Shown here in pieces: positions 2 through 62,808 of a stretch of 64,000 nucleotides of DNA (position 1 is its first letter; every line of letters starts with the position of its first letter). The notes below the pieces were generated by a model that ran no database searches, was not told the origin of the DNA, and worked only from the letters and a program-made list of their open reading frames with translations. The position numbers and the translations under genes are program-made. Origin of the DNA: [Phormidium] sp. LEGE 05292 (GTDB taxonomy: Bacteria; Cyanobacteriota; Cyanobacteriia; Cyanobacteriales; Aerosakkonemataceae); assembly GCF_015207735.1 (NCBI RefSeq), contig NZ_JADEWG010000009.1, forward strand, positions 1 to 64,000, in the 5' to 3' direction.

Positions 2-613
2 AAAAACTCCAAAGCAGCTATTAAGCGTCAAGTAGTTGCGCTCGTCATGGTAGGTTATCGCAATGCTTCCTTGCTGGTATCCCGTCGCGGCATCTTGGAT
101 AAAGGTAAAACAACCAACTTGGGCATGTCTAGAATGGTTGAGCTAGTCATGGAACGCACGGCGGGACTAACATCCTCCCAATTAGTTCCGGCGATATTGG
201 CAGCAGGAAATCATCCAAAACCACAACATTTTCTCAAGTTAGTTAGCGGTAGCGAGCGATCGATCCGCGATACCGAGATAGAGAAGATAATATCTGCGGT
301 AGAATCTGCCAGGACAGAGTATGCAACCTCACTTGCCTCATGGTTAAAGGAAGTGTTGCCACCTAGTAGTGAATTAGACGAAGCTATTGTCTGCGGTGGC
401 ACAACAGATTATTTGCACGAAGAACTAAATGCGATATTTCCCGGAACACCTGTAACGTGGCATGGCGGGGTAGAAATCCCCACATCGCTAAACGAACAAT
501 GGTTGGGTACTCGCTTGGCAGATGTATGGGCACTGTCAGTTTACCACGCAGCCAAGGTGAAGGCACTGGCTAAGTTGCAAGAACAGGAAAAGGAGGCGGT
601 GGTAAATGGCTAA
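2..613 (+). CDS. Actin-like plasmid partition ATPase (ParM/StbA family), C-terminal part
   Basis: The frame is open from the window edge, so the start lies upstream and only the C-terminal ~203 residues are here. The block ending in CGGTTDYLHEEL resembles the adenosine-binding part of the second actin-like subdomain (Gly-Gly turn followed by a short helix). The early ALVMVGYRN stretch fits the strand that binds the second phosphate loop. ParM-like proteins form filaments that push plasmid copies apart. The next gene overlaps it by 8 bp, the usual parM-parR arrangement. Family is inferred from these motifs; the N-terminal nucleotide-binding half cannot be seen. Confidence 0.65.
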   Translation, partial: KNSKAAIKRQVVALVMVGYRNASLLVSRRGILDKGKTTNLGMSRMVELVMERTAGLTSSQLVPAILAAGNHPKPQHFLKLVSGSERSIRDTEIEKIISAVESARTEYATSLASWLKEVLPPSSELDEAIVCGGTTDYLHEELNAIFPGTPVTWHGGVEIPTSLNEQWLGTRLADVWALSVYHAAKVKALAKLQEQEKEAVVNG

Positions 614-1061
614 CCGAAAAAAAGATTTGACCTGGCGTTATCAACCATCTGTTGATTCGGATAAAGCAAAGTTACTCAGTTACATCCAGAATCAAAAGCT
701 GCATCCAAATCAAGACAAAACAGCAATGATTATCAATGCTCTGACTTCATACTATATGCCAGTAGCATTGCACAGCGAGGGCAGTTATTCGCAGGAAACT
801 TTGGAATTGCTACTGCTAGATTCAGCAATGGCTTTTGCCAATCAACTCAAGTATTTATGTGCCGTATTGAATGTAGAACCAATGCGGGTAGGCAGCGTTT
901 TGTGCAGTGCTTTTCCCATATCGAATCCAGACTACAAGCAAGCCAAAGTTTCAGATGCAGCACGGAATGAAATTGTGGATGAATTGGATGATTTTGACCC
1001 ACAAGCTTGGAATTTGTCAGGAATCACAACTGACAGCGAAACTTTTGAATTTATTAATTAG
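606..1061 (+). CDS. Possible ParR-type partition adaptor
   Basis: This is a 151-residue protein with a basic N-terminus (ANRKKDLTWRYQP), a helical middle and an acidic C-terminal tail (DELDDFDP). It starts 8 bp inside the actin-like gene, behind the GGAGGCGG ribosome site. In ParMRC systems the gene directly after the actin encodes a small DNA-binding adaptor that couples the centromere to the filament. Position, size and charge pattern fit that role. No ribbon-helix-helix motif is clear by eye, so the function is inferred mainly from context. Confidence 0.55.
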   Translation: MANRKKDLTWRYQPSVDSDKAKLLSYIQNQKLHPNQDKTAMIINALTSYYMPVALHSEGSYSQETLELLLLDSAMAFANQLKYLCAVLNVEPMRVGSVLCSAFPISNPDYKQAKVSDAARNEIVDELDDFDPQAWNLSGITTDSETFEFIN

Positions 1062-1072
1062 GAGAGAAGTTG

Positions 1073-1822
1073 ATGGCAAGAATACACTTAATTGATGGAG
1101 AAAAAGGCGGCGTTGGAAAATCATTATTTGCCCGCGTTATGGTGCAGTATTGTATTGAAAATAAGATAGAACACGCCTTAATAGATGCTGATATCACCAA
1201 TCAAGATGTGAAGCGGTTCTATCACTATGCCGTTAATGCAGAATTTTCCGAAGCTCTGAATAAGGGAAATAAAGCTGACATTATTTTTGAGTTAGCTAGG
1301 GAAAAAGCGGTAATTGTTAACCTTCCGGCTAATGTATTTCCCTTGGTAAATAACTGGGTTACAAAGGGGAGATTGCTGGATGTGGCTGATAAATACGGTG
1401 TTGATGTGTGCAAGTGGTTTATCTGCGATGGTGGATTTGAATCGATCGAGTTATTCTATCAATCAATGGAGCAATACAAAGACAAAATGCTGCACGTTTT
1501 TGTCCGAAATTTAGGAAAAACGGACGACTGGAGTTTTTTAGAAAGCGAATCTAAGTATCAAGAATTGAAAGATAAGTACAAAAAGACTTTGCAAGTTATT
1601 GATTTTCCATTGCTGTATCCAGGTGATAGATATTTCATCGACTCGAACAAATTCAAATTCAATGACCCTCAAATTGAAGAGAAGATGCCAATTATGTCCC
1701 AACAGCGATTGATGACATTTCTCGAAGATTCCTACTTGCAAATTGCGGTTACAGAACTATGGACACCGGATAAGCAACCTAAAAAAGCTGAGAAGGAAAA
1801 AGCAGTAACTTCTAGTAAGTGA
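1073..1822 (+). CDS. MobD/ParA-like P-loop ATPase
   Basis: The N-terminus reads IHLIDGEKGGVGKS, a deviant Walker A box of the MinD/ParA superfamily with the signature lysine before GGVGKS. ALIDADITNQD follows, as the Walker A-prime aspartate strand. About 249 residues. I place the start at ATG 1073, 6 bases after GGAGAG, rather than at the in-frame TTG at 1070. Relatives include MobD/StbC-type proteins of plasmid transfer and stability loci, which lack the DNA-binding part of true ParA. It sits in one operon with the actin-like and ParR-like genes, so a role in plasmid maintenance or mobilisation is likely; the exact role is open. Confidence 0.65.
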   Translation: MARIHLIDGEKGGVGKSLFARVMVQYCIENKIEHALIDADITNQDVKRFYHYAVNAEFSEALNKGNKADIIFELAREKAVIVNLPANVFPLVNNWVTKGRLLDVADKYGVDVCKWFICDGGFESIELFYQSMEQYKDKMLHVFVRNLGKTDDWSFLESESKYQELKDKYKKTLQVIDFPLLYPGDRYFIDSNKFKFNDPQIEEKMPIMSQQRLMTFLEDSYLQIAVTELWTPDKQPKKAEKEKAVTSSK

Positions 1823-37714: not shown

Positions 37715-40700
37715 TTAACCACTTTCTAAATCAGATGAATTTTGTGATAGTTTAGCAGTACTAAATCGAGCAAAAGCTTGTTTTTCAGCCTCAGCGAAAT
37801 TGCAAGTAATTGCAGGCAAACCTTTATGAGCCTTATAAAGCGTACCCCGCTCAGATAGTTCATCAACAACTCGCAAAGTTTCAGTCGGAGTATGAATAAT
37901 TACTCTATATTGATGATTTTCACCAAACGTAGCAGTTTGGATTTCTTCACCTGTATTAGCAACATTAGCCTTCAAGCTAGTAATAGCAGCAGTCAGCATC
38001 TTCTTTTCCCATTCTGACCGCAATGGTGTTAATTCTGGAGATGCAGCCAGAAGCTCAACTCCTTGTGGAGAATTAGTTGCTAATTGAGTAGCAGTATTGA
38101 GCAGTTCTAGCATTTCCGGTAAAGGAACAGCAATTAATTTTGTATGCTGTCCTCCTTGCATTTGTTCGTATTTCAAAGGAAAATTAAAAGCTTCTGTCAG
38201 CCTATCAGCTGTCTTTACCTCCGCTTGAGCAGTTGGCAATAAAACACCAAAATAAAGTTCTTCTTGATTATCCTTACTAGCAACGCCTACAAAACTATTT
38301 GCTCCAAACTTCTGCTCAATTTCCTGAGATAATGCCATAATCGATTCCTCAGAAAGACTGCGAGACTGCATAAAATCTTTCACTTCATCGCTACCGATTA
38401 GATAAGCTTTTATTGCCGCTTGTTCATCGTGCATTAACCCTACAAATTTCTCTGGATAACGTTGTTGTAGTAGTGGTTGAATCGCCTCAATTAAACTAAC
38501 TTTTTTCGGCTGAACTACAGGTTCCTCTTTCGTCCACAATTGCGGATATTTAACAGTTGATGAATCTACTTTAATGTTAGCAATAGTAGCAGGTGCAGAT
38601 TCTAAAGTAGCCGAAAACTGAAATCCCTGCACCGAAACACCTTTTTGAGTTAACTTATCAGCTAATTCTGTAAATGATGCTTTATCAATTATTCCTAAAG
38701 GTTTACCATCAACTAAAGCTATAGCTGTAGGCTGTTTACCATGCTGAACTTGAATACTAATAAACCCAGTTTCCCCATGCCATTCCTTATCAGCAAAATC
38801 ATACTTTTTCAACTGTCTTACCTTCAATTGATTGCCTTTAGTACTAGTAATAATTACACTAGCACCAGGAGGTGAACTGATAGTTGCTTCAAAAGAAGTA
38901 CCAATAGGTAATTGCGCCGATTCACTCCGAAATACCCCTAACTTCTTACCTTCTACCATCAACCAACGCTTATTTTGAGAAGGATTAGCTGGGTCAAGTG
39001 CTTGAACAATTTCACAACTAAGTTTTTCGCCTACCCAACGTCTTCCCAGGTGTTCGTTACTTGGTTTATGAACACCAACTACTGCAAAATCAGTAAATTG
39101 TAATTCCTGTAATCTTCCAGTTATTTCATCACCAAATATAGCAAATGCTGCCGATAACTTCTTGGTAGCATTTTCATCCTTACCACTAGTAGATAATTCC
39201 CATATAGCTGCTGCAACTGACTCTTTTTGTGAATCAGGAATACTATCTCTAGCAGTATTAGCAAATTCTTTAGCTTGTTTAAAAGCTGCCTTCACTTGTG
39301 CTTGTGTTAATCCAGGTAAAACTTGTGCTGTTAGTCCTTTAAGTTCTGTCCATTGTTTCATCCGTTCGGGATATTTAGCCACACTTTCTGTAGCAATATA
39401 ACCTAATTTTTTATACTTAGGTTTACCATTTTTTAATTCTGGTTTCCCTTGAGCATCAAATACAGGTGCTAATGCTACCCAGCGATTTTTGATTTTATTA
39501 TCTGGCTTGTTATTTTCAACAATTTTAATATCCAATTTTCTTTGGTTATCAAAAGCATGAGGATGATGACATTGCGCTAATCCAATAATTTCAATAGAAT
39601 TACCTTTAGCACTAGTTGCCACAATTCTTGGTCCCGGTGCTTCTGCTACTTCTCTCTTCATTTCAATAGCACAATTGAGCAAAGTATCATAATTTTTCTT
39701 TAATTCAACAGCTTGTTCTTTCTGGGTAGGTGTAAATTCTACTCCCGTAAACAAGTCTTGAAATTGTTGAGTAGAACGAGCGACTAACGCACTTTCTGCA
39801 AATGCTTCATTGGTTGGTTTAATCATCAAATCAATCGCACCATGACCGATAGCATTCATACTTCTTGATGAATAAACCGCATCAGTTTTCTTCTCTTCTA
39901 CCCAAGGTGCAATATCAAAACTTTTAATAATTGCCTGACAAGCATTAACAATTTCTGGGTCAGCACGATTAGCACTTTTCCCCCTATCCACTTCTATTTG
40001 CAGTTGACCACCTAATATCCCAACTACATCATGATAAAATTGGCGAGATTTTTCTAAGAATTGATTAACATCTGCTGAACTAAGCTGCGGTAAATCAACT
40101 TGTTTATTGGCAATCACAAGGTTATACTCATCAATACTATTACATTCAGCTACACTCAATCCTTTATTATGCAATTGTTGAGAAAAACCTGCTAATTGAG
40201 TAATTTGCTGTTTAATTTTTGGTGGATATTTTACAAGTTTTACTACATCATGTTCTGCGGCTAACATTCCGGTTGCACCAAGAGAAATATCCCGCATTAA
40301 TTGAAATGCTGCTGTTGGTGGTACTGCATTACATTCATTTTCTAAAGCAATCCCTTTCATGCAGAGATTGGCAATTACACCAATCTTGTTTTCCATTGCC
40401 GATAAAGCAATACTCTCAAAACTACCAAGGTATGCTTTCTTCTCTAATTTAACAATCTCTGCATAACGATTCTCTGCTTTCTGCCGTTGTTTGATTTCAC
40501 TGACTGTATGGGGGAATTCTGATGCTAGAATGTAAGCCATGCGATCGCCATCGCAATCGGATAAGGAATGCTGTAATCCTTTTGGTGACATCTTGATTGT
40601 GCCCACATCATGCGGTTCGTGAGGCAGATGTTTGTTAACATAGACATCAACTGTATTAGAATTAGCAGTAGGGCCACGATAAACGATAACTTCAGCACCA

Positions 40701-41953
40701 TCAGGATAGTTAGGAATATTAACTTCATTTTCTGCTAAATCGTGACAAGTTTGAGCCATCGCGGAATCAAACTTAATAAATCTGCCAGTCGCACAATCTA
40801 AGTACTGTTCGCGCCAATGTTCCTGAAGTTTATCGATAACTTTGGGTAATTCTAGCACTTGATAGTGACCATCTAAATCAGCTTTCAAGATACGATATAA
40901 CAGTTGGGAATCGCTATTACCAAATGCTTGTTCGATTAGTTTATCGAAAGCGTCTAAATCTAGGTTATCAAAATCAACATCTGAGGAGGACGTACTATCT
41001 TCCTGTATCCGATATTTGTTCCTTTCATCCATAACTTTGATGTAATCTCTAGCAATCTGGCGCGGGTCAGATGCCATCTCTTTAAGTTCTGCCAACCGTT
41101 TTTCTAACCGAGGTAATACATCATTTTGCACTCCAAAAGGGAAAGAATTCCAAAATTGCGAACCAGTAGAAGTAATCCCCAAATAAGCATCAGTTTTATT
41201 ACCGATGCCAATCGTCATTGTATATTCCCCTGGTTTGATTTCATTCCCACTTTTTATTGCTTTACCATCTGTCCCCAAAATCCCCAATTTATTCTCTTGA
41301 TTCTTGCGTCCTTTGAGTTGGTCAGTGCTAATAATTAAATCGTAACCATTGCCAATTATAGAAAGGTCGCGGGGTGCAAATGTACCTTTTCCTACTTGCC
41401 AAGTTTGATTAACTGGGGTGTCTTCTTGTAGTTCTAATCCTGCTTGGCGTGACTTAATCCCAAACCGAGTTTGAAATGGTGTATTTGCTGCATTTCCTAA
41501 TGCTTCATGGGTGAGAATATCTATTTTTCCATCCCCATCTCCCACCAGTTTTATTGCTTCTTGATTAGGGATGATTCCCCCATTTTCACCAGTAGCAGCA
41601 TCTACGACTAGCACCCGCAAACCTTTAATTTCGGCAAAACTTTGACAAGGAGTGAACATATTAGAACCATAAGCAGCACCAAAGTGTGCTTGGTCAAAGA
41701 CTTTCTCCCGCAATTGTTTATCCATAAAATAAAAGCGGTCATCAGAAGCAAATTGTAAAGTTAAACCTTGTGTTTGCAGGTTTTGTAAATCAGCTTCTGT
41801 GGTAATGCCGGGATAAACTGCACCAATTTTATAAGTAGCATCAGGAGCAAAATATGCTGCTAAACAATGTTCTATAGTTTCGGTTACAGGTTGTCCATCA
41901 ACGATAATTGGTTGATTAGTTTTGGTGCAAAAATGTTCTAGCGTAATCGCCAT
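37715..41953 (-). CDS. Putative single-chain RNA polymerase (YonO/QDE-1-like double-psi barrel)
   Basis: 1412 residues. The key signature is SDCDGDRM with Asp 466, 468 and 470, the D-x-D-G-D metal site of double-psi-barrel RNA polymerases. Before it, EVIVYRGPTANSNTVDVYV and VGTIKMSPKG align with the blocks VxVxRxP..., and pKG that precede DLDGD in cellular RNA-dependent RNA polymerases. After it, SAMENKIGVIANLCMKGIA and TGMLAAEHDVVKL correspond to the conserved 'D-x-LG-x-I-x-N' and 'AVD' blocks of that family. The N-terminal ~300 residues (with LVGDGDGKID) may hold the first barrel. The C-terminal ~700 residues are unassigned. It could transcribe or prime plasmid DNA. Assignment rests on motif order read by eye; no search was possible. 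Confidence 0.6.
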   Translation of the reverse strand: MAITLEHFCTKTNQPIIVDGQPVTETIEHCLAAYFAPDATYKIGAVYPGITTEADLQNLQTQGLTLQFASDDRFYFMDKQLREKVFDQAHFGAAYGSNMFTPCQSFAEIKGLRVLVVDAATGENGGIIPNQEAIKLVGDGDGKIDILTHEALGNAANTPFQTRFGIKSRQAGLELQEDTPVNQTWQVGKGTFAPRDLSIIGNGYDLIISTDQLKGRKNQENKLGILGTDGKAIKSGNEIKPGEYTMTIGIGNKTDAYLGITSTGSQFWNSFPFGVQNDVLPRLEKRLAELKEMASDPRQIARDYIKVMDERNKYRIQEDSTSSSDVDFDNLDLDAFDKLIEQAFGNSDSQLLYRILKADLDGHYQVLELPKVIDKLQEHWREQYLDCATGRFIKFDSAMAQTCHDLAENEVNIPNYPDGAEVIVYRGPTANSNTVDVYVNKHLPHEPHDVGTIKMSPKGLQHSLSDCDGDRMAYILASEFPHTVSEIKQRQKAENRYAEIVKLEKKAYLGSFESIALSAMENKIGVIANLCMKGIALENECNAVPPTAAFQLMRDISLGATGMLAAEHDVVKLVKYPPKIKQQITQLAGFSQQLHNKGLSVAECNSIDEYNLVIANKQVDLPQLSSADVNQFLEKSRQFYHDVVGILGGQLQIEVDRGKSANRADPEIVNACQAIIKSFDIAPWVEEKKTDAVYSSRSMNAIGHGAIDLMIKPTNEAFAESALVARSTQQFQDLFTGVEFTPTQKEQAVELKKNYDTLLNCAIEMKREVAEAPGPRIVATSAKGNSIEIIGLAQCHHPHAFDNQRKLDIKIVENNKPDNKIKNRWVALAPVFDAQGKPELKNGKPKYKKLGYIATESVAKYPERMKQWTELKGLTAQVLPGLTQAQVKAAFKQAKEFANTARDSIPDSQKESVAAAIWELSTSGKDENATKKLSAAFAIFGDEITGRLQELQFTDFAVVGVHKPSNEHLGRRWVGEKLSCEIVQALDPANPSQNKRWLMVEGKKLGVFRSESAQLPIGTSFEATISSPPGASVIITSTKGNQLKVRQLKKYDFADKEWHGETGFISIQVQHGKQPTAIALVDGKPLGIIDKASFTELADKLTQKGVSVQGFQFSATLESAPATIANIKVDSSTVKYPQLWTKEEPVVQPKKVSLIEAIQPLLQQRYPEKFVGLMHDEQAAIKAYLIGSDEVKDFMQSRSLSEESIMALSQEIEQKFGANSFVGVASKDNQEELYFGVLLPTAQAEVKTADRLTEAFNFPLKYEQMQGGQHTKLIAVPLPEMLELLNTATQLATNSPQGVELLAASPELTPLRSEWEKKMLTAAITSLKANVANTGEEIQTATFGENHQYRVIIHTPTETLRVVDELSERGTLYKAHKGLPAITCNFAEAEKQAFARFSTAKLSQNSSDLESG

Positions 41954-42129: not shown

Positions 42130-42363
42130 ATGAGTAATAGTGAACCAAAAAAGCCAATTCAATTACCTGTTTCTCGGTGGCATTCTGATAACTTAGGTGA
42201 CTTACTAGCAGATGGTACAGTAGATATTGATGAACTGTGCGGACAAGCTGTTATTGCCGAACAAAGGGAAGCAGCTTGGTTGGAAGAACAAAGAGCGTTT
42301 GAAGAATGGTTAGAACAGAATCCACCACCTGAAGGAAGTTCTGTTAATAATGATGATTTTTGA
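42130..42363 (+). CDS. Small acidic protein
   Basis: 77 residues, acidic and helical (LGDLLADGTVDIDELCGQA, AEQREAAWLEEQRAFEEW), ending in an Asn/Asp-rich tail. It is divergent from the polymerase-like gene with about 175 bp between them, a likely shared promoter region. The ribosome site is weak. Family unknown. Its amino-acid pattern looks coding, so I keep it. Confidence 0.5.
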   Translation: MSNSEPKKPIQLPVSRWHSDNLGDLLADGTVDIDELCGQAVIAEQREAAWLEEQRAFEEWLEQNPPPEGSSVNNDDF

Positions 42364-43524: not shown

Positions 43525-44427
43525 TTATTCATCAACAGCAAATGCAGAAGTATCCACCGTTTGTGGTGCAATCACATTTGTCGTTGCCTCATCAAGAGTA
43601 TCAGCAGCTTTGAGAAGATGTTTACTAAAGTTAGCTGCTTCACCTGCTAAAGTCCATAATTCCTCTTGTTTATCTAGAGATATGAACTTACCAACCGGAT
43701 TAATTTGATTAGGAATCGCCACCATTTCTGGGATTGCTACCCAAGATTTCTTATCACCATTAGGTGGTTCCAATGATGGTTTAAAAGTGGGATGGAAAAC
43801 TGTTAAGCAGTGGAATCTATCATTCAGACTGCGATATCCAGTTCCCATTGCTTTGGCATAAGCGATTTCCATCTGCACTTTAAATTGATTATACGCTTCA
43901 CCAAATCTGGCAGCTGCCACCCCATGCACTGATAACACCAAAGGTACAGAATGCAGAAAACAGTTATTGTCGTCTACTAAATAAATAATGTAAAACGAGC
44001 GCAAAGTTGCTGGTTTCTTGGGGTCAGAATTAATCTCTTCATATTTAGCACGACCTTCTGCTGTTTCGTAGTTAGCAACAATTTCTCCAGTTTCTCGCAT
44101 TTGCACATAACGGTCAGATTTAGCCAAAATGTGCATTCGTGGCGATTTGAATAGCACTCCTTTTTCTACTGTACCGCTAGAAAAAGTATGTTCGTAATTT
44201 GCTTCTTCACCTCGCCAATCAATTAATGCTAAATTCTTCTCTTTGATGAACAATCCCACCGAAGTTGGTGTCTTTTCATTGAGGATTTGACAGATAGCTA
44301 AGGTAGTTAATTTACCACTAAATTCGGCGGCAATAAACTGTGTTAAACGCGGGTCAATTGTTGTTTCATCAACTGTATTTTCTGTAGCAGTTACAGGTTC
44401 GGTTGTCTTGCTGTTTTTTGTAGGCAT
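43525..44427 (-). CDS. Conserved cyanobacterial protein, possibly DUF5895
   Basis: 300 residues. The Thr/Glu-rich N-terminus (1-25) is followed by a globular domain: TTLAICQILNEKTPTSVGLF, ALIDWRGEEANYEHTF, LFKSPRMHILAKSDRYVQM, then LHSVPLVLSVHGVAAARFGE and a C-terminal helical part. From memory this fits DUF5895, found on cyanobacterial plasmids and phages. Many such proteins sit near replication genes, so a single-strand DNA-binding or recombination role is conceivable, but nothing in the sequence proves it. Confidence 0.55.
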   Translation of the reverse strand: MPTKNSKTTEPVTATENTVDETTIDPRLTQFIAAEFSGKLTTLAICQILNEKTPTSVGLFIKEKNLALIDWRGEEANYEHTFSSGTVEKGVLFKSPRMHILAKSDRYVQMRETGEIVANYETAEGRAKYEEINSDPKKPATLRSFYIIYLVDDNNCFLHSVPLVLSVHGVAAARFGEAYNQFKVQMEIAYAKAMGTGYRSLNDRFHCLTVFHPTFKPSLEPPNGDKKSWVAIPEMVAIPNQINPVGKFISLDKQEELWTLAGEAANFSKHLLKAADTLDEATTNVIAPQTVDTSAFAVDE

Positions 44428-44581: not shown

Positions 44582-44842
44582 TTAAAACTCGTTATCAGCT
44601 AATTGACCATTCTTGGGCAGTTGTTCTTGCAATTTTTGAATCTGCCAATGCCGAATTTTAGTTTGTAGTTCTTGCAAAGCTACTACTAAAGCTTGGACAG
44701 TTGGCAAATTCTCTGGCACAAACTGAATGATGATTGATTCATTTTGGTTATGCAGATACAAATTAACTGTATTATCTGCGGTAATACAGCTAGTGCAACT
44801 GTTGGATGTTAAACTAATGAAAGTAGTTTTAGAAATGTTCAT
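44582..44842 (-). CDS. Small protein coupled to the Gp157-like gene
   Basis: 86 residues. Its ATG overlaps the stop of the upstream gene (ATGA, 44839-44842), so both are co-translated. The N-terminus has a Cys pair (CTSC), then beta strands (NLYLHNQNESIIIQFV) and a C-terminal helix with Gln and Lys. Family unknown. The coupling suggests it works with the Gp157-like protein. Confidence 0.55.
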   Translation of the reverse strand: MNISKTTFISLTSNSCTSCITADNTVNLYLHNQNESIIIQFVPENLPTVQALVVALQELQTKIRHWQIQKLQEQLPKNGQLADNEF

Positions 44843-45420
44843 TTCTTACCTCTAGAAGACTTAGTTAAATGACGAAATCGGACGTGCTTTTCTGTAGTAA
44901 TCTGGGCAAATTTACTGACATCTTCACCTGCTTTATGAGCCGCCATAATTTCGGAATTTTTGGCACTAACTTTCACGGCTTGAAATTCGGGAGGCAAGCT
45001 TTCAGGTTCTACTGTCAGCACAACAGAAGGTGGACTATTTTGAAAATCAATCCGCCGCTCTGTGCCTACCACTTGCTCTGGTAACAATCCGAGTTTGTAC
45101 AATCCCAACAAGTAAGCTTTCAGACTGTTCAATTGATTACGTCGTCTTTGAATGATGTTTGTATACAACTGGGTAATTCGCTTCACTCTTTCTTCCCAGA
45201 TTTCTAAATCCAACTTCAATTGGTCAGCAACAAAAGCAATAGCATCTATCTTGGCTTCACTAGCATTCTGGATGTCTAATAGTTGGGAGTAAACATCAGT
45301 TAAATCTGTATCTTCTGGACAGTTTTCCAGTTGTTGCCATAGTTCAGCAGCACTAATAGATAGCTGTGCTAAAGTAGCACGATTGATGTTAGTTTCACTC
45401 AAAGATGAGGTGGCATTCAT
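44839..45420 (-). CDS. Phage Gp157-like protein
   Basis: 193 residues. A long N-terminal coiled-coil region holds AAELWQQLENCPEDTDLTDV and the family-like segment KIDAIAFVADQLKLDLEIWEE, then helix RRRNQLNSLKAYLLGLYKL. The C-terminus has IDFQNSPPSVVLTVEPESLP, as in siphovirus Gp157 proteins, where a late strand pair follows the helices. Gp157 genes lie beside recombination and replication genes in phages; the molecular role is not settled. This gives a phage flavour to the replication module. Confidence 0.65.
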   Translation of the reverse strand: MNATSSLSETNINRATLAQLSISAAELWQQLENCPEDTDLTDVYSQLLDIQNASEAKIDAIAFVADQLKLDLEIWEERVKRITQLYTNIIQRRRNQLNSLKAYLLGLYKLGLLPEQVVGTERRIDFQNSPPSVVLTVEPESLPPEFQAVKVSAKNSEIMAAHKAGEDVSKFAQITTEKHVRFRHLTKSSRGKK

Positions 45421-46320: not shown

Positions 46321-47475
46321 TTAATCTTTTGAATGTAAGCTTTCCATATATTCTAAATAATCTAACTGCCTAGAAGTAAATAAAACTTGTTGTTGCATAA
46401 AATTTAACATAGTTACTTCCAATTCATCCAATTGAGCCATGCGGAGTCGGAGAATTCGCTCTGCTACTTCTGGCAACTGACTTAATTGTTCATCAGCTAA
46501 ATCGACTGATTTTAAATCACTAGATTTTACATTAATTACCTCAACTCCCATATTGACTTTTATCCCCATGTTATTTGACTGTACTACTCCCCAAAATCCA
46601 TTCCATTTTCTTTCAGGAATTCCCGCTTTCTCTTGCCAGGTTATATTGATGAAAACTACATCGCCTACCGCCAAAGATTTTATCCCATCTACTTCTGGGG
46701 AAGTTGTGTCAGAATTTTCCACTGCCAAATCAGAGTCGAATGGCTTTTGGGACATTAGTTTTGTTAACTTTAATTTGCCACCCGTATGAGCAGATAATAT
46801 TTGCTGACGCTTTTGGGATGGTTGTTTGAGCAGTTGGTAAGCTGCATCTACACTTTGAAGATTTAACACCTGACGCAATGCAAGAGCCACTTCTGAGTTA
46901 CCTTGGCTGAACTCGCTATCGATTAAATCTACCACCTGAGAAGCTTTCGAGTAAGTACGCGCTTTCATACCAACACGAGCAGATACCCGCTCCCTCGTTT
47001 TTCCTGTCTCCCGACCTTGTGGCAAATTTGCCACAAGGTCGGATGTTTTTCTTCGCCGATGATTTCCCGCCAGTTCGACTTGCCTTTTTTTGGCCTTCTC
47101 CCTTTCCACAACCTCCCAAGCTTTTCCTTCTCTCACCTTTTGCTCCACAGTCTTTTCCCGGCTAGCATTTTCTAAAAGTAATGCCTCCAATTCCTCTGCT
47201 TCCGTCTGAAACTCCCTAACTTCCACTCCTACAGAATGCCATCCTAAAGTTAGTACTGCCTTCCATCGACGATGACCAGAAATAATGGTTCTATTGGGAG
47301 TAATTACCAACGGTTTTACCCAACCAGAAGACTCAATTAATGCCACTAATTCAGAAATATCTTCCTCTTCTCCATAAATAAAAGCATTACGAGGATGCGG
47401 TTGCAGGGTATGAGGATCTACCCCAAACGTAGATTCAGAGGCAAGATTAGCAGCATTAGGCAGTGCAGAATGCAA
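46321..47475 (-). CDS. ParB/Spo0J-family protein
   Basis: 384 residues. The TTG start at 47475 is decided by AGGAG 7 bases upstream. The ParB N-domain is clear at about 20-105: GVDPHTLQPHPRNAF, ELVALIESSGWVKPLVI, and the TIISGHRRWKA box. It then has a basic linker, an HTH-like region (about 150-215, GMKARTYSKASQVVDLI) and a C-terminal domain with a short SH3-like part. No parA sits beside it. Besides partition, ParB-like proteins of this size also act as regulators or nucleases. An inverted repeat between it and the XRE gene suggests shared control. Confidence 0.75.
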   Translation of the reverse strand: MHSALPNAANLASESTFGVDPHTLQPHPRNAFIYGEEEDISELVALIESSGWVKPLVITPNRTIISGHRRWKAVLTLGWHSVGVEVREFQTEAEELEALLLENASREKTVEQKVREGKAWEVVEREKAKKRQVELAGNHRRRKTSDLVANLPQGRETGKTRERVSARVGMKARTYSKASQVVDLIDSEFSQGNSEVALALRQVLNLQSVDAAYQLLKQPSQKRQQILSAHTGGKLKLTKLMSQKPFDSDLAVENSDTTSPEVDGIKSLAVGDVVFINITWQEKAGIPERKWNGFWGVVQSNNMGIKVNMGVEVINVKSSDLKSVDLADEQLSQLPEVAERILRLRMAQLDELEVTMLNFMQQQVLFTSRQLDYLEYMESLHSKD

Positions 47476-48093: not shown

Positions 48094-48942
48094 TTAAATC
48101 CCAGAATCGATTCGAGCCAAATAAAACAACGTGCCAATGCTAATTCTAGTAGGATGAAAAGTAGCCCATTTTTGCGTACATTCACCAGGCTGATATTTTG
48201 ATGATTGTTGACTCCACCAATCCCACTCTGGTAACAACGATGGCGAGTAAGAATGTAATGCCATGCCAATCCGAATCCACTCATTGTAATCATCTGCTCT
48301 CCAAGGTGCTAGTTGAGCTAACAAAGCAGCGATTCGCTGATTCTTAACTGTCAATTGCGGTGCAGACTTAGAAGATTTTGGGATTAACTGATTCAACCAT
48401 TTAGGAACAGTAGCAACTGTGCATTCTACCGGACTAACTACCCAACGATATCTCCCAGTCTGAGGATGCACAGAAGGTGGTAAAACTGACATCATCCCCG
48501 CACCTCTAATTTCTAAAGCTTCACCTGACATTGGTGCTTTAATGCGCCGCGATCTAATTTCAGTACCATCAGGAATCGAAAATAGGTACTGACAACGCCC
48601 TGGTTTACCGCTAGTAAATGCGACAGTTTGTGGCATATTTCCCTTGGTGATTGTTTGTAATACCTTCATTGCCGAACTACCATCAACATCTAGAGCAACC
48701 ATTCCCCGACCTGTTAATACACCTATTCCTTGAGGATAAACACGCACTTGATTACCTGCTTGATTGCGAACTTTTACTCCACCTGTTGATTGCAATTGTC
48801 CGATTAATTCATCTTTATGAAATGGGTTTTGTTGCCATTTGTAGCCTAAAGGTTGTTTATTTCCATTAGTCGGCACAATTGACCAACTACTAGGAATCAA
48901 CGACAGACCTTGTAACAACCTTTGTGTCAGATTGTTAGTCAT
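48094..48942 (-). CDS. Primase-polymerase (AEP) with PriCT-2 domain
   Basis: 282 residues. The N-terminal ~190 residues are the prim-pol domain of bifunctional DNA primase/polymerases: GIGVLTGRGMVALDVDG with metal-binding Asp 85 and 87, then TSGKPGRCQYLFSIP and GEALEIRGAGMMSVLPPSVH. The last ~75 residues match PriCT-2: DDYNEWIRIGMALHSYS, WDWWSQQSSKYQPGECTQKW. Plasmid and phage relatives often continue into a helicase; here the protein stops, so a helicase must come from elsewhere. It probably makes primers for the family-B polymerase of this module. Confidence 0.8.
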   Translation of the reverse strand: MTNNLTQRLLQGLSLIPSSWSIVPTNGNKQPLGYKWQQNPFHKDELIGQLQSTGGVKVRNQAGNQVRVYPQGIGVLTGRGMVALDVDGSSAMKVLQTITKGNMPQTVAFTSGKPGRCQYLFSIPDGTEIRSRRIKAPMSGEALEIRGAGMMSVLPPSVHPQTGRYRWVVSPVECTVATVPKWLNQLIPKSSKSAPQLTVKNQRIAALLAQLAPWRADDYNEWIRIGMALHSYSPSLLPEWDWWSQQSSKYQPGECTQKWATFHPTRISIGTLFYLARIDSGI

Positions 48943-49026: not shown

Positions 49027-50301
49027 CTAATGCTTGATTTCAATCGGCATCAATACTTGAGTTGTCGGAATCAAGCTTTCTACTGGCGAGATAATTATGG
49101 GAGTAGTTGGTTCATCCAGTAGCAATTCTACCCAAGCAGTATCCAATTTTTTCAAACCTTCTAGCAGATACTTAATATTCAAACCAATCCGTAAACTTTG
49201 ACCAGTCACCAATGCTTCTATTACCTCAACACCACTACCCCAATTTGCTGTTTCGACAGTTAATTGTATTGATTGTTCTGATTGATTGATATCAGCCACA
49301 ACCACATAATTCTTATCAGTAAGCACTGCCAAACGCTCCAACAAACTTATCAACTGCTTGCGTTCAAAACGAACAGTTGTTTGTTGTTGTTGAGGAATCA
49401 ACTGTCGATACTGAGCATATTCCCCAGCTAATAATCGCATGACTAACTCGGTTGTACCAATCGTTAACCAAGCTTTGCTTTCATCAAATGCTAAACTGAT
49501 AGTATGAGCAGTAGTTTCTGAGAGAATCCTTTCTAATTGTTGTAATTTGCTAGCTGGGATAGTTACACTGAACTCAGGAATAGCTTCATCTTCAACATAA
49601 GGGTTAGCGATAGTAGCAAATGCCAACCTGTGACTATCAGTAGCAGCTAATTCAATGCTATCTGCATCAAATTGTAAATGAACCCCAGTGAGTACCTGTC
49701 TTGTTTCCTCCGTAGCTGCTGCAAACAACACATAACGTAATGCAGTTGCTAATAACAATGGTTTCACCTGAAAGCTATGGTTATTAGCATCTAGTGCAGG
49801 TAATGTAGGAAAATCATCTGGATTTGCACCTCTGATTTGGTATTTACCACTAGCACAAGACAAGCTGACAACTGATTTAGCATTAGCTGTAATTGTTAGT
49901 TTACCAACTGGTAAGCGAGAGGTGATACTTTGTAATAGTTTGGCTGGTAGTATCACCATCCCTTGATGTTCTACATTGGCTTCACAACTAACTGTAATTC
50001 CTAAGTTATAATCAAATCCAGTTAGCTTTACTTGCCCGTCGATTGCTGCAATTAATACATTCCCTAAACTAGGATGAGTAGGTTTAGTCGGAACTGCTAA
50101 TAGGGCAGTTGATAGTTTAGAATTAAATGTTTCTACCTCTACTTCAAATTTAAGTTTAACTTCATCGCTAGAGGTTGATTGACTATCAACTTGGCTAATT
50201 TCGGCCTCAGCAATTGTTAATTCTTCATCTTCAACAGGGGATGGAACTACTTCGTTAACAGTAGGCTTTTCTAGAACTTGTGTGGGATTTTTCCGAGGCA
50301 T
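49027..50301 (-). CDS. dnaN: DNA polymerase III sliding clamp (beta subunit)
   Basis: 424 residues. After an acidic ~55-residue N-terminal extension (TIAEAEISQVDSQSTSSDEV) absent from standard clamps, the three clamp domains follow: PTHPSLGNVLIAAIDGQVKL and YQIRGANPDDFPTLP are typical DnaN segments, with VLTGVHLQFDADSIELAATD as domain 2. The ring holds polymerases on DNA. Downstream of delta-prime, and matching the C-terminal QLSLF of the nearby family-B polymerase. A plasmid-borne clamp apart from the chromosomal copy is unusual. Confidence 0.85.
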   Translation of the reverse strand: MPRKNPTQVLEKPTVNEVVPSPVEDEELTIAEAEISQVDSQSTSSDEVKLKFEVEVETFNSKLSTALLAVPTKPTHPSLGNVLIAAIDGQVKLTGFDYNLGITVSCEANVEHQGMVILPAKLLQSITSRLPVGKLTITANAKSVVSLSCASGKYQIRGANPDDFPTLPALDANNHSFQVKPLLLATALRYVLFAAATEETRQVLTGVHLQFDADSIELAATDSHRLAFATIANPYVEDEAIPEFSVTIPASKLQQLERILSETTAHTISLAFDESKAWLTIGTTELVMRLLAGEYAQYRQLIPQQQQTTVRFERKQLISLLERLAVLTDKNYVVVADINQSEQSIQLTVETANWGSGVEVIEALVTGQSLRIGLNIKYLLEGLKKLDTAWVELLLDEPTTPIIISPVESLIPTTQVLMPIEIKH

Positions 50302-50367: not shown

Positions 50368-51321
50368 TCAACCTGCAATAGTATTTGCTAATGTAATCTC
50401 CCAAATTAAGCGATTTTGAGCTAATTTTAGGAGTGCATCTTTAGCTTGGACAAGTTTTTCTATTAAGTCAACCCGGTGATAGGAATGCCACCACAAGAAT
50501 TGCAGATAATCAATTAACCATAATTGCTGAGAGTGTTCTAAACTATGGTCAATTGTTTTAGCCAATGACAATGCTGCCCTTAAATTGGATGGTAAACTAC
50601 TACATTGTTGGATAACTTCTTCAGGAATTGATTGCAGCATTTGATAAGATGAAATTGCTGCACCAGGACTTCCCTGTGCCATGTTGAGTAACATCGGGTC
50701 ATCCAAAATATGCTGTTCTCCGACTTGGGTTAAAACTCGAGCAAAATCATCATCCGATAACCGACGGAAAGGAATTAACTGACACCTAGATACAATGGTT
50801 GGTAATACTTCTTGAATCCGAGAGGTAAGCAAGATAAACAACGTATTGATTGGTGACTCCAATGTTTTTAGTAATGCTGATGCTGCTTGATGATTTAAGC
50901 TATGTGCTGATTCTATAACGACAACTTTTTGTGCGGCAATTATTGGTTGAGTAGCGGCAAATTCCACTAATTCTCTCACCTGAGAGATGCGAATTACTGG
51001 TGCAGTTTTCCGGTAAATTCCATGCGCGATAGCATCGGTTTGGGTTAGCAGTTTATCTAGCTGTTGATAGGTAGGCATCACCCATAAGATATCTGGATGT
51101 TTGTTGCTAGAAAGTTCAGCAATATCAACCGATGTTTGTGCAGACATTAACAATGCTTGAATTAAACATTTGGCAGCCAAACGCTTACCTATACCATTTA
51201 AACCAGCAAACAGAAAAGCATTAGGGATGCGCTTACTATTAATGCTGGCTTTGAGTAGTTTGATAGCTGTTGGTTGACCAATTACTGAACTGAAATGTTG
51301 GCAGTTGACTGTTGTTTCCAT
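50368..51321 (-). CDS. holB: Clamp-loader delta-prime subunit
   Basis: 317 residues, AAA+ fold: VIGQPTAIKLLKASINSKR, FLFAGLNGIGKRLAAKCL (P-loop), KVVVIESAHSLNHQAASALL (no true Walker B Asp-Glu pair, as in delta-prime), then the arginine-finger box IVSRCQLIPF. C-terminal collar helices follow. It starts 40 bp inside the previous gene. Together with delta and DnaX on the same strand, it would form a complete clamp loader. Confidence 0.8.
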   Translation of the reverse strand: METTVNCQHFSSVIGQPTAIKLLKASINSKRIPNAFLFAGLNGIGKRLAAKCLIQALLMSAQTSVDIAELSSNKHPDILWVMPTYQQLDKLLTQTDAIAHGIYRKTAPVIRISQVRELVEFAATQPIIAAQKVVVIESAHSLNHQAASALLKTLESPINTLFILLTSRIQEVLPTIVSRCQLIPFRRLSDDDFARVLTQVGEQHILDDPMLLNMAQGSPGAAISSYQMLQSIPEEVIQQCSSLPSNLRAALSLAKTIDHSLEHSQQLWLIDYLQFLWWHSYHRVDLIEKLVQAKDALLKLAQNRLIWEITLANTIAG

Positions 51322-51614: not shown

Positions 51615-52571
51615 CTAAATCTTGCATATTTTCTGGATTTGAAAGCTGAGCGAATTTCGCGCATCCTGACCGCTTTTGAGCATGATTTCTAACTCTAAAA
51701 GACCCGATAAAGCATCTTTTAATTGCTCGATTGTGCAATTTTGAGTTTCCTGTTTCAGGTAATAAATGCGATTAGGATTCCCGATTTCTGCTTCGGATGC
51801 AATCAACTGGTTAGATGCACCTTGTTGTGTCATCAGCTTCACCCATAACCAAGTGCGAAATTGAGTTACCAGCGTAGCAACTATTCTCAAACCAGGTTCG
51901 TTACTATTGAGCAAATCATTCACGCAACTAAGTGCAGCTGGTAGATTTCTTTGCAGAATAAAGCTAGCCAATTTGAGACTGCTACTAGTATTAGCAGAAA
52001 CCAAGGTTAAGACATCTTCTATTTCAATTGTTCTATCACCTACATAAAGGCTTAACTTTTGTAATTCCGAGTGCAATAATCGAGTATCGTTTCCTACGGC
52101 TGCTACTAATGCTTCAATTGCTTGAGAACTAAGATTAATGTTGAGTGATGATGCTATTCTCTGCACGTTTTGTGCTAGTTGTTCGGTTGCCCAGATGGGA
52201 ATGATAGGATACTCTTTAAATTGGGCATACTTCTGCAATAATTTGGTTGATTTAAGCCTGCTATCTGGCTTGGTTTTACTAGTCAGTAATAGAGTATTAG
52301 TTGCAGATAAATTCTTCAGGCAATTTGACCAAGCTTGCAGTTGATTTTCACTACATTCTCCTCGATTATCTTGTAACCAAACTAAACGACCTCCTTCACC
52401 CCAAGGACGAGTCATAACAATGGTGATTCCTGTCATTAATGCTTCGGGACTAGGAGGGATTTTGGTGTAGTTAAAGTTTAACCAGTTGGGATGACAAATG
52501 CTAGACCGCAGTTGGTTAATTTCCAGGGAAGTAGCAAATTCATCTTCTCCATATAAAACGATTACTGGCAT
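51615..52571 (-). CDS. holA: Clamp-loader delta subunit
   Basis: 318 residues with the delta pattern: IVLYGEDEFATSLEINQLRS at the start, LVWLQDNRGECSENQL, TNTLLLTSKTKPDSRLKSTK in the AAA+-like domain without a Walker A, GNDTRLLHSELQKLSLYVGD in the lid and a C-terminal collar with RTWLWVKLMT. Delta opens the clamp ring. The reading frame overlaps the methyltransferase gene by 10 bp. Confidence 0.78.
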   Translation of the reverse strand: MPVIVLYGEDEFATSLEINQLRSSICHPNWLNFNYTKIPPSPEALMTGITIVMTRPWGEGGRLVWLQDNRGECSENQLQAWSNCLKNLSATNTLLLTSKTKPDSRLKSTKLLQKYAQFKEYPIIPIWATEQLAQNVQRIASSLNINLSSQAIEALVAAVGNDTRLLHSELQKLSLYVGDRTIEIEDVLTLVSANTSSSLKLASFILQRNLPAALSCVNDLLNSNEPGLRIVATLVTQFRTWLWVKLMTQQGASNQLIASEAEIGNPNRIYYLKQETQNCTIEQLKDALSGLLELEIMLKSGQDARNSLSFQIQKICKI

Positions 52572-55597: not shown

Positions 55598-56929
55598 TTA
55601 ACTGATTAATTGCAGACGAGTATTAGTACCAACTGCTTGCGATAATGCTGACTCCAAACGTGCAACTGGAACTTTATTCTTTAATGCTTCCGAACTAATT
55701 TTGATAGTAGCAGTTCCCGCTTCTAATGCTACTAATTTTCCATGCTGTTGCAGCAATGCCTTGATACTAAGTGGCAATTGTTTTAGTGTTTGCGTCCAGA
55801 TATCTGTTGACGAAGATTGCTGATTGACAGTAGGATTTTGATTCCCTACTGTCAACAATCCAACCAACGTGATTTCTAACCATAAATGAGGACAGTTAGA
55901 ACTTTTCAGTTGTGCTTCTGTAGCACGCAGATATTCTTGACCTGCTAAAATATCAGCTACTTGCCAACTAGAAGCATTTGCACATAACTGCTGCCAAGTT
56001 GCTGCGGTACAAGCTGCTAAATCTTCCCGATTAGGTGCAGTTTTAGCAATTAACAAATCGCGGTAAAATCCAACTAAATCTTGTAAAATAGTTAGAGGTT
56101 CTCGTCCGCTTTCTATTAATTGCCGACTTCGGTCAATTAACTTTTCTGGGTTATTGCTAATTACTGCTTCCAGCATTGCCAATAAATCATCTTCTGGTAC
56201 TGCACCAACTAACTCCCAAATTTGTTCTTTGCTAATTTCACCTGATAGTAAGCTTAATTGTTCTAGCAAACTTTCAGCATCTCGCATTCCTCCTTGTGCG
56301 ATTTGACCAATTAATGTTAATGCTTCATCTGTAATATTGATATCTTCTGCTGTAGCAATATAACGCAGATGATTGACCATTGCTGTCAATTCTATGCGTC
56401 GGAAATCGAATCGTTGACAGCGAGAAATGATTGTAGCTAAAACTCGTTGCGGGTCAGTAGTGGCTAACACAAATACTACTGCATTTGGAGGTTCTTCTAG
56501 TGTTTTGAGTAAAGCATTCATCGCCGCACTAGAAAGTCCATGAACTTCATCAATCACATATACTTTATAGCGACATTGTGCGGGAGTAAATTGGCTAGCA
56601 GAGATAATTTCTCGGACATTTTCTACTCCGGTATGACTAGCCGCATCAATTTCAATTACATCTAAGCATGACCCTGATGCTATGCTTTGACAAATCTCAC
56701 ATTTACCGCATGGTGTTGCCGTTGGTTGTTCGCTTGCTTGGCAGTTGAGAGATTTAGCTAGTATTCTAGCACTAGAAGTTTTTCCTGTTCCTCTAGAACC
56801 AGTAAATAGATATGCAGGTGCTATTTGTTGGCTATTGATGGCATTAGTTAAGGTAGTAGCAATTGCATTTTGACCTACTAATTCGGCAAAGGTTTGGGGA
56901 CGATATTTTTGATGAAATGGGATGTACAT
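55598..56929 (-). CDS. dnaX: Clamp-loader gamma/tau subunit (DnaX)
   Basis: 443 residues: QKYRPQTFAELVGQ start, Walker A GSRGTGKTS (44-52), zinc-binding Cys (Cys 63, 74, 77, 80), Walker B-like VYVIDEVHGLSSAAMNALL, arginine finger IISRCQRFDF, then the collar. It is short, gamma-like, without the long tau tail that binds DnaB helicase and the Pol III alpha. No intein. It fits a loader serving a family-B polymerase. Confidence 0.87.
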   Translation of the reverse strand: MYIPFHQKYRPQTFAELVGQNAIATTLTNAINSQQIAPAYLFTGSRGTGKTSSARILAKSLNCQASEQPTATPCGKCEICQSIASGSCLDVIEIDAASHTGVENVREIISASQFTPAQCRYKVYVIDEVHGLSSAAMNALLKTLEEPPNAVVFVLATTDPQRVLATIISRCQRFDFRRIELTAMVNHLRYIATAEDINITDEALTLIGQIAQGGMRDAESLLEQLSLLSGEISKEQIWELVGAVPEDDLLAMLEAVISNNPEKLIDRSRQLIESGREPLTILQDLVGFYRDLLIAKTAPNREDLAACTAATWQQLCANASSWQVADILAGQEYLRATEAQLKSSNCPHLWLEITLVGLLTVGNQNPTVNQQSSSTDIWTQTLKQLPLSIKALLQQHGKLVALEAGTATIKISSEALKNKVPVARLESALSQAVGTNTRLQLIS

Positions 56930-62100: not shown

Positions 62101-62165
62101 GTCTAAATGATGCTGACCTTATTTTGTCTGAACATTTGAGGGTAAATCGTGCTGCCATTGGATGA
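59118..62165 (+). CDS. Large adenine DNA methyltransferase, Eco57I/Type IIG-like
   Basis: 1015 residues. The N-terminal ~150 residues resemble nuclease-like domains of Type IIG/BREX-like enzymes (IYFTQLDRSDPDPRELARLH, LWVVTPTNVRLYNCY). Then helical ~200 residues. Methyltransferase: motif I KILDLACGSGLFLVESL (Asp 354), YGVDIEPQAVQIA, motif IV GNPPW (Asn 471 to Trp 474). C-terminal target-recognition part from about 610, with LAHYLNGIINSSLTSYFLF. The start has GGAGG upstream and couples to the regulator; the next gene overlaps by 17 bp. It probably methylates adenine in a specific sequence and pairs with the nuclease gene. Confidence 0.8.
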   Translation: MSSRSTTEILYQRVMEETGFYRNGVPTSGVIEAESLRNNNQQLEKRIKYSAVIDPNQINATAIFELSGSPCIYFTQLDRSDPDPRELARLHKLSWNHGLAPMLWVVTPTNVRLYNCYSEPTEDDPNRNLIKLFENTEASLKQLNEHASRLQIESGEFWKWQNARQIDRKKRVDRVLVEDLQEAEKKLREQGLESQVAHALLMQSIFVAYLQDRGILDAEFFQSHFNVDSFIDLLDDSSATSRLFEWLQVTFNGDMFPVASSRFQNSYKAKHLETIKDLVGGTIDIKTGQGRLWRFYDFKVIPVELISSIYENFLYSKDSKTAEETSVHYTPVNLVDLVLDEVFQKLDGGAKILDLACGSGLFLVESLRRLVVKRCVSGEEPSRQLIRETLYNQIYGVDIEPQAVQIAAFSLYLTALELDRELEQYKHLLSNLKFQPLIGRNLFSCDAFDDKAAFNSVEALANKKIHAIVGNPPWTKSKFTKSASKYCQRKRPEQGYPKGYPLAYGDPPDQAFLWRASDFSNENTQIGLILHARAFFSNFSEAKEAKEALLMHFKPRVIINLSKLYRENLFPNSEAPALILIAEGYRSEARDFCYFVCPQRSVDYRKHGILEIGAENIKKLPVSGVASDADMLKIATWGGARDLALIQRLRESFQSIEKVAEKPFRNGFKLGNCSQEVPQAFKKKKWLPSGVMPKYRIDAATLDVLPYSRLEAPRDYQTYKAPLVIVPEKVESTGIFSAFSSEDIVYPKSYYGLSISEDSKSLAHYLNGIINSSLTSYFLFMTASSWGVARKTLMMQDIARLPVPSPTESNAHIVSQIIDLEKRLIEHHNTPTHLKVKKKLDDAVFSLYGLDETEQILVNDAVSITIDLYMNREESAALQRPQISELELYAIKLISVIQPFLQTLRQRVLVADVIEVSKSPLQVVKFSFVPAPGREQIVQTTQVQELKTILNRIAEQLPKQIAERVYTRRDLRIYTNQDIYIIKPAQKRYWSRSAGLNDADLILSEHLRVNRAAIG

Positions 62166-62808
62166 ATCTAATGCTGTTGGTCAACCTGCTCTTATTCTTA
62201 GACAGGACATTATAATTACTGTCCTTTTGTTAATTAGGGAAGGTTGGATGCAAGTTTGTCAAGCAGGCGAAATAAGCGTTACTTCGGATGAAGACACGAT
62301 TGCAGGAGCTTTGCATAACGAGATGTGGGCTGCGAAGAAACGTCTCGGAATTGCTGGACCACCACTAATTGTTAATGAACCAGCATCAAGAGCGTCTACA
62401 GAAAGCTTGAAACCAGATGGGTTTATTGATTTCAAGATGTTTTATGGATGGGGAACACAGGAAGATTATTTTGGTATAGAGTGCAAACGAATTAGTAGCA
62501 CAGGAACAGATAGGTATTTAGCGACAGAGTACATCAAAAATGGAATAATGCGATTTATCACTGGCATCTATAGCCCAGGTCATGACTTTGCAGCAATGGT
62601 TGGTTTTGTCATTGATGGGAAAATGATGAATTGCGTTGATTTGGTTCGAGAACGATTAAGTAAATATAGTAACGAAACTTGTATGGAACAAGATTGGGCA
62701 ATTGAACATGATTTCGGCTTACAGAATGACCTTTATAGAACTTTTCACCGCCAGCATGGACAAAGCTTTCTCTTCAGGCTTCTTCACTTATTTCTGGTCA
62801 TTGATTGA
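62149..62808 (+). CDS. PD-(D/E)XK nuclease-like protein
   Basis: 219 residues from a GTG overlapping the methyltransferase. The catalytic pattern is KPDGFIDFKMFYGWG with Asp 94, then FGIECKR with Glu 111 and Lys 113, spacing typical of the PD-(D/E)XK fold. The N-terminal helices come before this core, and IMRFITGIYSPGHDFAAMVG follows. It may be the restriction subunit of a Type II-like system or a nuclease partner of the MTase. It is an intact frame. Confidence 0.65.
   Translation: MLPLDESNAVGQPALILRQDIIITVLLLIREGWMQVCQAGEISVTSDEDTIAGALHNEMWAAKKRLGIAGPPLIVNEPASRASTESLKPDGFIDFKMFYGWGTQEDYFGIECKRISSTGTDRYLATEYIKNGIMRFITGIYSPGHDFAAMVGFVIDGKMMNCVDLVRERLSKYSNETCMEQDWAIEHDFGLQNDLYRTFHRQHGQSFLFRLLHLFLVID

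Follow-up and report, generated by a model that had tools for sequence, protein, structure and literature searches.

A cyanobacterial plasmid protein family predicted to comprise single-chain two-barrel RNA polymerases related to QDE-1 and phage enzymes

We analysed a stretch of 64,000 nucleotides from the cyanobacterium [Phormidium] sp. LEGE 05292 (contig NZ_JADEWG010000009.1, positions 1 to 64,000; hereafter the window), whose contig we read as a plasmid because of its gene content. One of its genes, P0001, probably encodes a single-chain two-barrel RNA polymerase of the QDE-1/YonO/crAss clade that belongs to the information-processing set of large cyanobacterial plasmids and makes RNA from plasmid DNA. 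A preliminary description of the sequence had proposed a single-chain polymerase of the QDE-1/YonO type, and this proposal is supported by the predicted fold, by a profile match to a phage polymerase family and by invariant catalytic residues. The 1412-residue protein that it placed here, naming no strand, is encoded by a single uninterrupted open reading frame (ORF) with an ATG start, and we now fix its strand as the minus strand of the window (Table 1).

The putative metal-binding loop reads SDCDGDRM from residue 465, giving D466, D468 and D470 of a D-x-D-G-D motif, as had been claimed. The motif alone is weak evidence, because it also arises in 235 of 20,000 shuffled P0001 sequences. It is, however, aligned in all 38 ORFs that cover the site (22–100% identity, a set that includes P0001 itself) and in 79 of the 80 ORFs of a second, partly overlapping set (27–75% identity), the lone exception, L086, having a D-x-D-G-D that falls out of register in the alignment; this conservation across relatives far exceeds chance and is strong evidence. 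The other blocks quoted in the preliminary description were also located in P0001 (VIVYRGP at 422, PKG at 457, NKIGVIAN at 522 and LAAEHDVVKL at 564). As family markers they held up in part: R426, P428 and G525 are invariant among 48 sequences, but LAAEHDVVKL is not conserved, and neither is K458 of PKG, which is kept in 3 of 12 aligned sequences.

Conservation was followed through family alignments A1 (P0001 plus 25), A2 (P0001 plus 11) and A6 (the window member plus 18), drawn from 40 loci, A3 (the window member plus 47) and A5 (the window member plus 26), drawn from 80 loci, and a phage alignment, A4 (L161 plus 19, out of 80 phage loci), the members of which we picked for length and diversity. 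Invariant in the 19-member alignment, which reaches down to 22% identity to P0001, are G138-D139, Q161-x-R163, K189-G190-T191, K214-G215, D466-x-D468-G469-D470, K505, G525 and Q652...D656...K659-S660; the other alignments are similar, and on their testimony this series is the stronger family signature. The last block may resemble an AVD..K motif of eukaryotic RNA-dependent RNA polymerases (RdRPs). Both K189 and K214 are also invariant in the 48-sequence alignment, and pairwise BLAST matches K189 with a lysine in 36/36 and 78/78 ORFs that cover the site. The invariant residues of the QDE-1 active site reportedly include Q736, K743, K767 and D1007/D1009/D1011 (PMC1750930), which follow the same order as in P0001, with the two lysines 24 residues apart (K743–K767) as against 25 (K189–K214). 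The glutamine stands 28 residues before the first lysine in P0001 and 7 in QDE-1, and P0001 would therefore carry an insertion here if the residues correspond. Judged by order and spacing, P0001 has the two conserved first-barrel lysines typical of the clade. That P0001 is instead a catalytically dead two-barrel protein, retained for nucleic-acid binding, is highly improbable: its D-C-D-G-D form is the less common one (2/38 and 10/80 aligned ORFs, plus the misaligned L086), which is an indirect hint at most, whereas none of the three aspartates and two lysines varies in the 19-member alignment and the motif is present in all 38 and all 80 covering ORFs.

The predicted fold points to the same enzyme class. 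An AlphaFold2 model of P0001 residues 1–1170, built from a 48-row alignment (pLDDT 85.3, pTM 0.81), was searched with Foldseek against 350,542 PDB chains, and the best 50 rows were considered. Ranks 1–23 were exclusively single-chain two-barrel RNA polymerases (E 1e-10 to 1.3e-5), comprising RDR2, QDE-1, P74-26 gp62, P32 gp64, crAss phi14:2 and P23-45 gp96, and the rows after them were multisubunit RNA polymerases. VIA-align placed maize RDR2 at Z 18.7 (594 residues, 4.6 Å), P32 gp64 at Z 17.4 and QDE-1 at Z 15.6, with rows 17–50 at Z 10.4–11.3 under titles that mainly name large subunits of cellular and African swine fever virus polymerases. Among viral predicted structures, the top match was a podovirus 'RNA dependent RNA polymerase' (E 6.2e-11). 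The double-psi barrel that the preliminary description expected in a predicted structure is borne out by the match to single-chain two-barrel polymerases over residues 1–954, which align with residues 489..1338 of QDE-1 and 370..1111 of RDR2. In the model, both barrels lie in one chain, the beta-like barrel preceding the beta-prime-like one, as in the QDE-1/YonO/crAss clade. We rejected a multisubunit cellular RNA polymerase, the barrels of which sit on two large subunits while P0001 holds both; a T7-type (palm) single-subunit polymerase was also considered, and its absence from the best 50 Foldseek rows is no formal exclusion.

Given that RDR2 and QDE-1 are the top-ranked solved folds, P0001 could be imagined to copy RNA templates, as the bacterial equivalent of the RdRPs of RNA silencing, and PDB entry titles show QDE-1 structures with both DNA and RNA templates. 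We consider such a role very unlikely, because the organism's own genome shows no Piwi match (0/1; the control matches in M. jannaschii); the plasmid and replisome context and the phage relatives, which where characterised are described as copying DNA, argue in the same direction. Beyond the barrels, a separate AlphaFold2 model of residues 940–1412 (pLDDT 72.6, pTM 0.41) returned nothing below E 0.001 in Foldseek, and its best VIA-align match was a HIRAN domain (Z 5.5, 74 residues), beneath the trust level of the tool.

At the level of sequence, the clearest link is to a phage polymerase family built from gp88 of Arthrobacter phage Gordon (annotated RNA-dependent RNA polymerase, phrog_4291), which hhalign matched to three P0001-family alignments with E values of 4e-7, 4.1e-8 and 1.8e-8. 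The D-x-D-G-D motif falls on the phage D-F-D-G-D in these alignments, and the profiles would thereby put residues 466–470 at the catalytic loop, as had been anticipated, with significance for the phage family and, for the D-x-D-G-D of RDR2, in a register that is not significant by itself. Two paralogues in the own genome match phrog_4291 'RNA-dependent RNA polymerase' (E 1.9e-8 and 4.2e-8), the homologue L074 scores 24.3 bits against Pfam RdRP (cut-off 23.8; E 1.5e-5), and, with E up to 1 allowed, 4 of 26 aligned relatives hit PF05183, the eukaryotic RdRP family (best E 3.8e-6). A PHROG without assigned function, phrog_34895, is matched by 18 of 26 aligned family members (best E 1.3e-72), though not by P0001 itself, which does not reach the Pfam cut-off for PF05183 and has no Pfam, NCBIfam or PHROGs match up to E 1. 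Against PDB sequences, P0001 gave one match, a flavodoxin at E 0.77, which we dismissed as chance. In searches for viral counterparts of P0001, tblastn against 50,697 phage records had no hit at E up to 1, and 0 of 3 candidate stretches from viral contigs were confirmed as P0001-related loci.

Relatives were found by tblastn on 84 of 72,556 plasmid records, of which 38 are predicted to be conjugative, 16 mobilizable and 30 non-mobilizable. The 77 records examined row by row are all cyanobacterial (22.7–36.4% identity), and their annotation at the matches is 'hypothetical protein' or none, and once 'ribonuclease H'; some matches overrun a transposase. In a sample of the phylum, 39 of 386 genomes match P0001, the own genome counted and some matches being short, and when 84,980 species genomes were scanned, 179 of 202 candidate stretches held up, 80 of which were retained; these are all cyanobacterial by title, with Argonema antarcticum nearest at 75% identity. 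The own genome has further relatives on contigs C111, C23 and C214, and the paralogue on C111 (L038) is fragmented, with a stop codon interrupting it. Apparently complete members span ~870 to 2800 aa. At five loci (L087, L103, L104, L121 and L150), the relative is split into at least two ORFs past the second barrel (P0001 residues ~506–700), which may reflect natural splitting, decay or sequencing error. A 2805-aa relative on the Gloeothece citriformis plasmid pP742402 (L162:7908-16325), with D-F-D-G-D at 529, is fused to an RNase H (PF00075, E 7.4e-38). In another large relative, of 2360 aa (L047:6510-13589, minus strand), a C-terminal stretch (residues 1480–1627) matches phrog_335 'phosphatase' (E 4.9e-23) and has no Pfam match; we take this stretch to be a macro domain.

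Genes for plasmid maintenance and replication accompany the family. Family presence was judged by the tblastn rows of the 77 records together with profile tests of individual records. The family B DNA polymerase (PolB) of the window matched 28 plasmid records by tblastn, 19 cyanobacterial and 9 from Deinococcus, and the polymerase family is present on 19/19 of the cyanobacterial ones; the nine Deinococcus records hold distant PolB relatives (25–29% identity), and none is among the 77. The clamp loader delta subunit matched 46 records, 41 of them cyanobacterial after five Bacillota records were dropped, and the family is present on 38 of the 41 (35 by tblastn rows and 3 by profile), the other three being negative by profile. 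The preliminary description had seen a copy beside a replisome, and replisome genes do lie near P0001 in the window; the association is not a one-off, as the same plasmid records repeatedly carry both.

This co-occurrence might alternatively be an effect of plasmid size or lineage, the polymerase having no link to replication. As a control we used the HlyD gene of the window, keeping 32 cyanobacterial rows and dropping 28 non-cyanobacterial ones among the best 60 of 3084 records; this unrelated gene is also accompanied by the family, in 22 of the 32, and on the PolB-bearing records compared, at least ~20 kb of linear sequence separates the PolB and polymerase genes; both observations suit an incidental association. 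Within the HlyD set, however, the association follows delta: the family is present on 18/18 records with delta and on 4/14 without it (Fisher p 1.6e-5, the records not being independent). Of the ten HlyD-set negatives, six were profile-tested, and four, apparent copies of tested plasmids, were assigned without a profile test. We therefore regard a pure size or lineage effect as doubtful.

Several observations weigh against the proposal that P0001 is a plasmid RNA polymerase tied to this gene set. Its polymerase activity is a prediction from fold, residues and distribution, and the structural matches have modest query-length TM-scores (0.19–0.38 for Foldseek ranks 1–23) and large rmsd. In pairwise BLAST, K214 has no lysine partner in 2/36 and 1/78 ORFs, whereas it is retained in the multiple alignments. 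With E values up to 10 admitted, phrog_4291 was matched in 12 of 14 control genomes too, and Pfam RdRP had no match in the own genome. Profile searches of PDB sequences with A1 and A6 reach RDR2 in the expected register at E of only 0.49–0.80; the A6 search also gave two unrelated matches, the top one a designed protein at E 0.1, and A3 had no match up to E 10. Regarding the replisome link, one PolB match (NC_014502) spans 12% of the query and one delta match (NC_014533) 26%, one profile-positive record (NZ_CP117771) has an in-frame stop, 42 of the 77 examined family records have no delta match, and the plasmid records include near-identical strains and are not independent.

In the proposed mechanism, the first barrel would supply K189 and K214 and the second D466, D468 and D470, which would hold the catalytic magnesium ions, and RNA would be built at the interface of the two barrels. 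P0001 would take plasmid DNA as its template, and its products would most likely be transcripts of the genes for plasmid maintenance, synthesised independently of the host RNA polymerase. The main alternative within this proposal is that the chief products of P0001 are RNA primers or an origin transcript, rather than mRNA, for the replisome of PolB, clamp and clamp loader. What makes priming a serious alternative is the replisome link, with PolB at 19/19 and delta at 38/41 records as above, together with the natural RNase H fusion on pP742402, a plasmid that carries PolB too and on which the fusion fits the handling of RNA–DNA hybrids; the weakly HIRAN-like C-terminal region can be read in the same way. 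It is weakened because the window already has a Prim-Pol/PriCT-2 primase encoded nearby, and the family records without a delta match likewise tell against it. On balance we rate priming as the main role unlikely. The transcriptase role is favoured over that of a primer maker because those phage relatives that have been characterised are transcriptases: YonO is described as transcribing the late genes of SP-beta (PMC5467207), and in P23-45 two enzymes are described as transcribing the pre-early and the early genes (PMC10770324).

Upstream of the P0001 start codon lies a 16-bp imperfect palindrome that is kept in the close clade (Table 1). Searching 2.79 Mb of fetched DNA for TATCACT-NN-AGTGATA with at least 12 of 14 positions matched gave 29 sites, and the palindrome also stands upstream of the polymerase in nine close relatives (L078, L079, L080, L081, L082, L083, L085, L087 and L091); at the same threshold it was not found at L041, likewise a close relative. 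Going by this pattern, we rejected it as a general promoter of the polymerase because there are just 2 exact sites in the 7.5 Mb of the own genome (backwards control, 1). The second exact copy, on contig C130, lies ~300 bp before a putative ParA-like gene that is followed by a ParB-like gene, and from its position the palindrome may be an operator or a partition site. At 53 other loci, a protein of ~176 aa (L133:7420-7947 and relatives) is encoded on the opposite strand to the polymerase in 53/53 cases and upstream of it in 45, separated from it by a median of 46 bp; the small divergent ORF of the window is a different one.

The genes upstream of P0001, from the DUF5895 gene through that of the DnaX-type ATPase, lie mostly on the same strand, and RND efflux genes lie downstream. 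Seven fetched loci encode relatives of the Gp157/Gam-like protein, and in six of these the gene lies upstream of that for the polymerase. Among 121 fetched loci, some of them duplicated between sources, we read a putative ParM-like neighbour in 66 and a putative ParA-like one in 39. The PolB type of the window is described from cyanobacterial plasmids, including pP742402 and Anabaena variabilis plasmid C, and from Nostoc phages (PMC4916379). Elsewhere in the window, a protein of 1015 aa that matches Eco57I and MmeI-type methylases is overlapped at its end by a 219-aa ORF (59118–62808), perhaps forming a restriction-modification pair, and a NACHT-domain protein (6950–9436) and an ORF with a NACHT match beneath the curated cut-off (15364–16779) flank a pentapeptide-repeat protein and a DDE transposase.

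Table 1. Positions of P0001, its predicted regions and neighbouring features in the window
Feature	Position	Strand	Evidence
Predicted single-chain two-barrel RNA polymerase gene P0001, 1412 aa	37715..41953	-	ORF, predicted fold, profiles
C-terminal beta-rich region, residues ~960–1190, weakly HIRAN-like	38384..39076	-	VIA-align Z 5.5 over 74 residues; no Pfam match
Conserved block Q652...D656...K659-S660, beyond the second barrel	39974..40000	-	Q652, D656 and K659 invariant in alignments
Predicted second barrel region, beta-prime-like, residues 394–476, six predicted strands	40526..40774	-	Predicted secondary structure; register on plant RDR2
Putative metal-binding motif D-C-D-G-D, residues 466–470	40544..40558	-	Motif position and conservation in aligned ORFs
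Predicted first barrel region, beta-like, residues ~105–255, with invariant Q161, R163, K189 and K214	41189..41641	-	Limits drawn from predicted strands
16-bp imperfect palindrome TATCGCTTTAGTGATA, 78 bp upstream of the polymerase start codon	42032..42047	.	Comparison of close relatives
Divergent 77-aa ORF, kept in close relatives	42130..42363	+	Homologues in 8 fetched loci beyond the window's own
DUF5895 protein	43525..44427	-	PF19247 E 1.1e-30
Siphovirus Gp157 / Mu Gam-like protein	44839..45420	-	PF05565 E 3e-13; phrog_253 E 1.5e-13
ParB-like partition protein	46321..47475	-	PF02195 E 2e-9; TIGR00180 E 3e-12, beneath curated cut-off
Prim-Pol plus PriCT-2 primase	48094..48942	-	PF09250 E 1.7e-28; PF08707 E 3e-22
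Sliding clamp DnaN	49027..50301	-	PF00712, PF02767, PF02768
Clamp loader delta-prime	50368..51321	-	NF005638 E 3.8e-106
Clamp loader delta (HolA)	51615..52571	-	TIGR01128 E 6.1e-58
Family B DNA polymerase (PolB), 600 aa	53713..55515	-	PF03104 E 1.7e-16; PF00136 E 5.6e-13
DnaX-type clamp loader ATPase	55598..56929	-	PF13177 E 5e-44; PF12169 E 5.1e-11

In the accounts cited here (PMC5303251, PMC7281927), the single-chain two-barrel polymerases described so far come mainly from phages, from fungal plasmids and from the RNA-silencing systems of eukaryotes, with the silencing polymerase considered closest to its phage relatives. With QDE-1 and RDR2 (PF05183), P0001 shares one-chain barrels in the same order, the D-x-D-G-D motif, lysines 24–25 residues apart and an alignable stretch over residues 1–954; it differs in its ~9–14% identity in structural alignments and its want of a Pfam match, in its location on cyanobacterial plasmids, its own C-terminal beta-rich region and its presumed DNA template. 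With the phage polymerases (YonO, P23-45 gp64 / P74-26 gp62, crAss phi14:2 gp66 and Arthrobacter phage Gordon gp88) it shares the fold class where structures exist, and with the Gordon gp88 family a profile–profile similarity around the second barrel; by contrast, P0001 is unmatched in the phage records searched and stands in a plasmid replisome context. Its likeness to YonO rests on clade membership, the sequence comparison made here being with the Gordon gp88 family; B. subtilis, used as a control genome, matches PF05183 (beneath the cut-off) and phrog_4291. The preliminary description had thought that a large cyanobacterial form beside a replisome would be new; the existence of cyanobacterial relatives is not, as YonO-like or related proteins in cyanobacterial genomes or likely mobile elements are already in print (PMC5467207, PMC7598289). 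Known to us by mention, those proteins may or may not be the plasmid family described here. The primary papers on the cyanobacterial relatives are said to be those of Ruprich-Robert and Thuriaux in 2010 and Iyer and Aravind in 2012. In the open-licence literature, we found no printed account of this plasmid family, of its fusions or of its link to the replisome. The cyanobacterial replication proteins CyRepX were not equated with the P0001 family because they are described as helicase-like (PMC10899382) and the CyRepX carrier pSYSX lacks a match to the polymerase profile.

A diverse cyanobacterial family carried by plasmids, with a window member that the libraries searched do not recognise, would widen the clade and offer new single-chain polymerases, and its role is directly testable because it is linked to plasmid replisome genes. 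We tentatively propose, as a possibility rather than an expectation, that the large and often conjugative plasmids of cyanobacteria have a semi-autonomous set for replication and transcription, with a QDE-1-like polymerase joining PolB, clamp and clamp loader and either priming that replisome or transcribing the plasmid under its own promoters; if true, this would give the QDE-1-like polymerase clade a bacterial home that is neither viral nor eukaryotic. The family would bear on how plasmids conduct RNA synthesis independently of the host, and it suggests that plasmids carrying their own DNA-copying machinery may partly run their own RNA synthesis as well.

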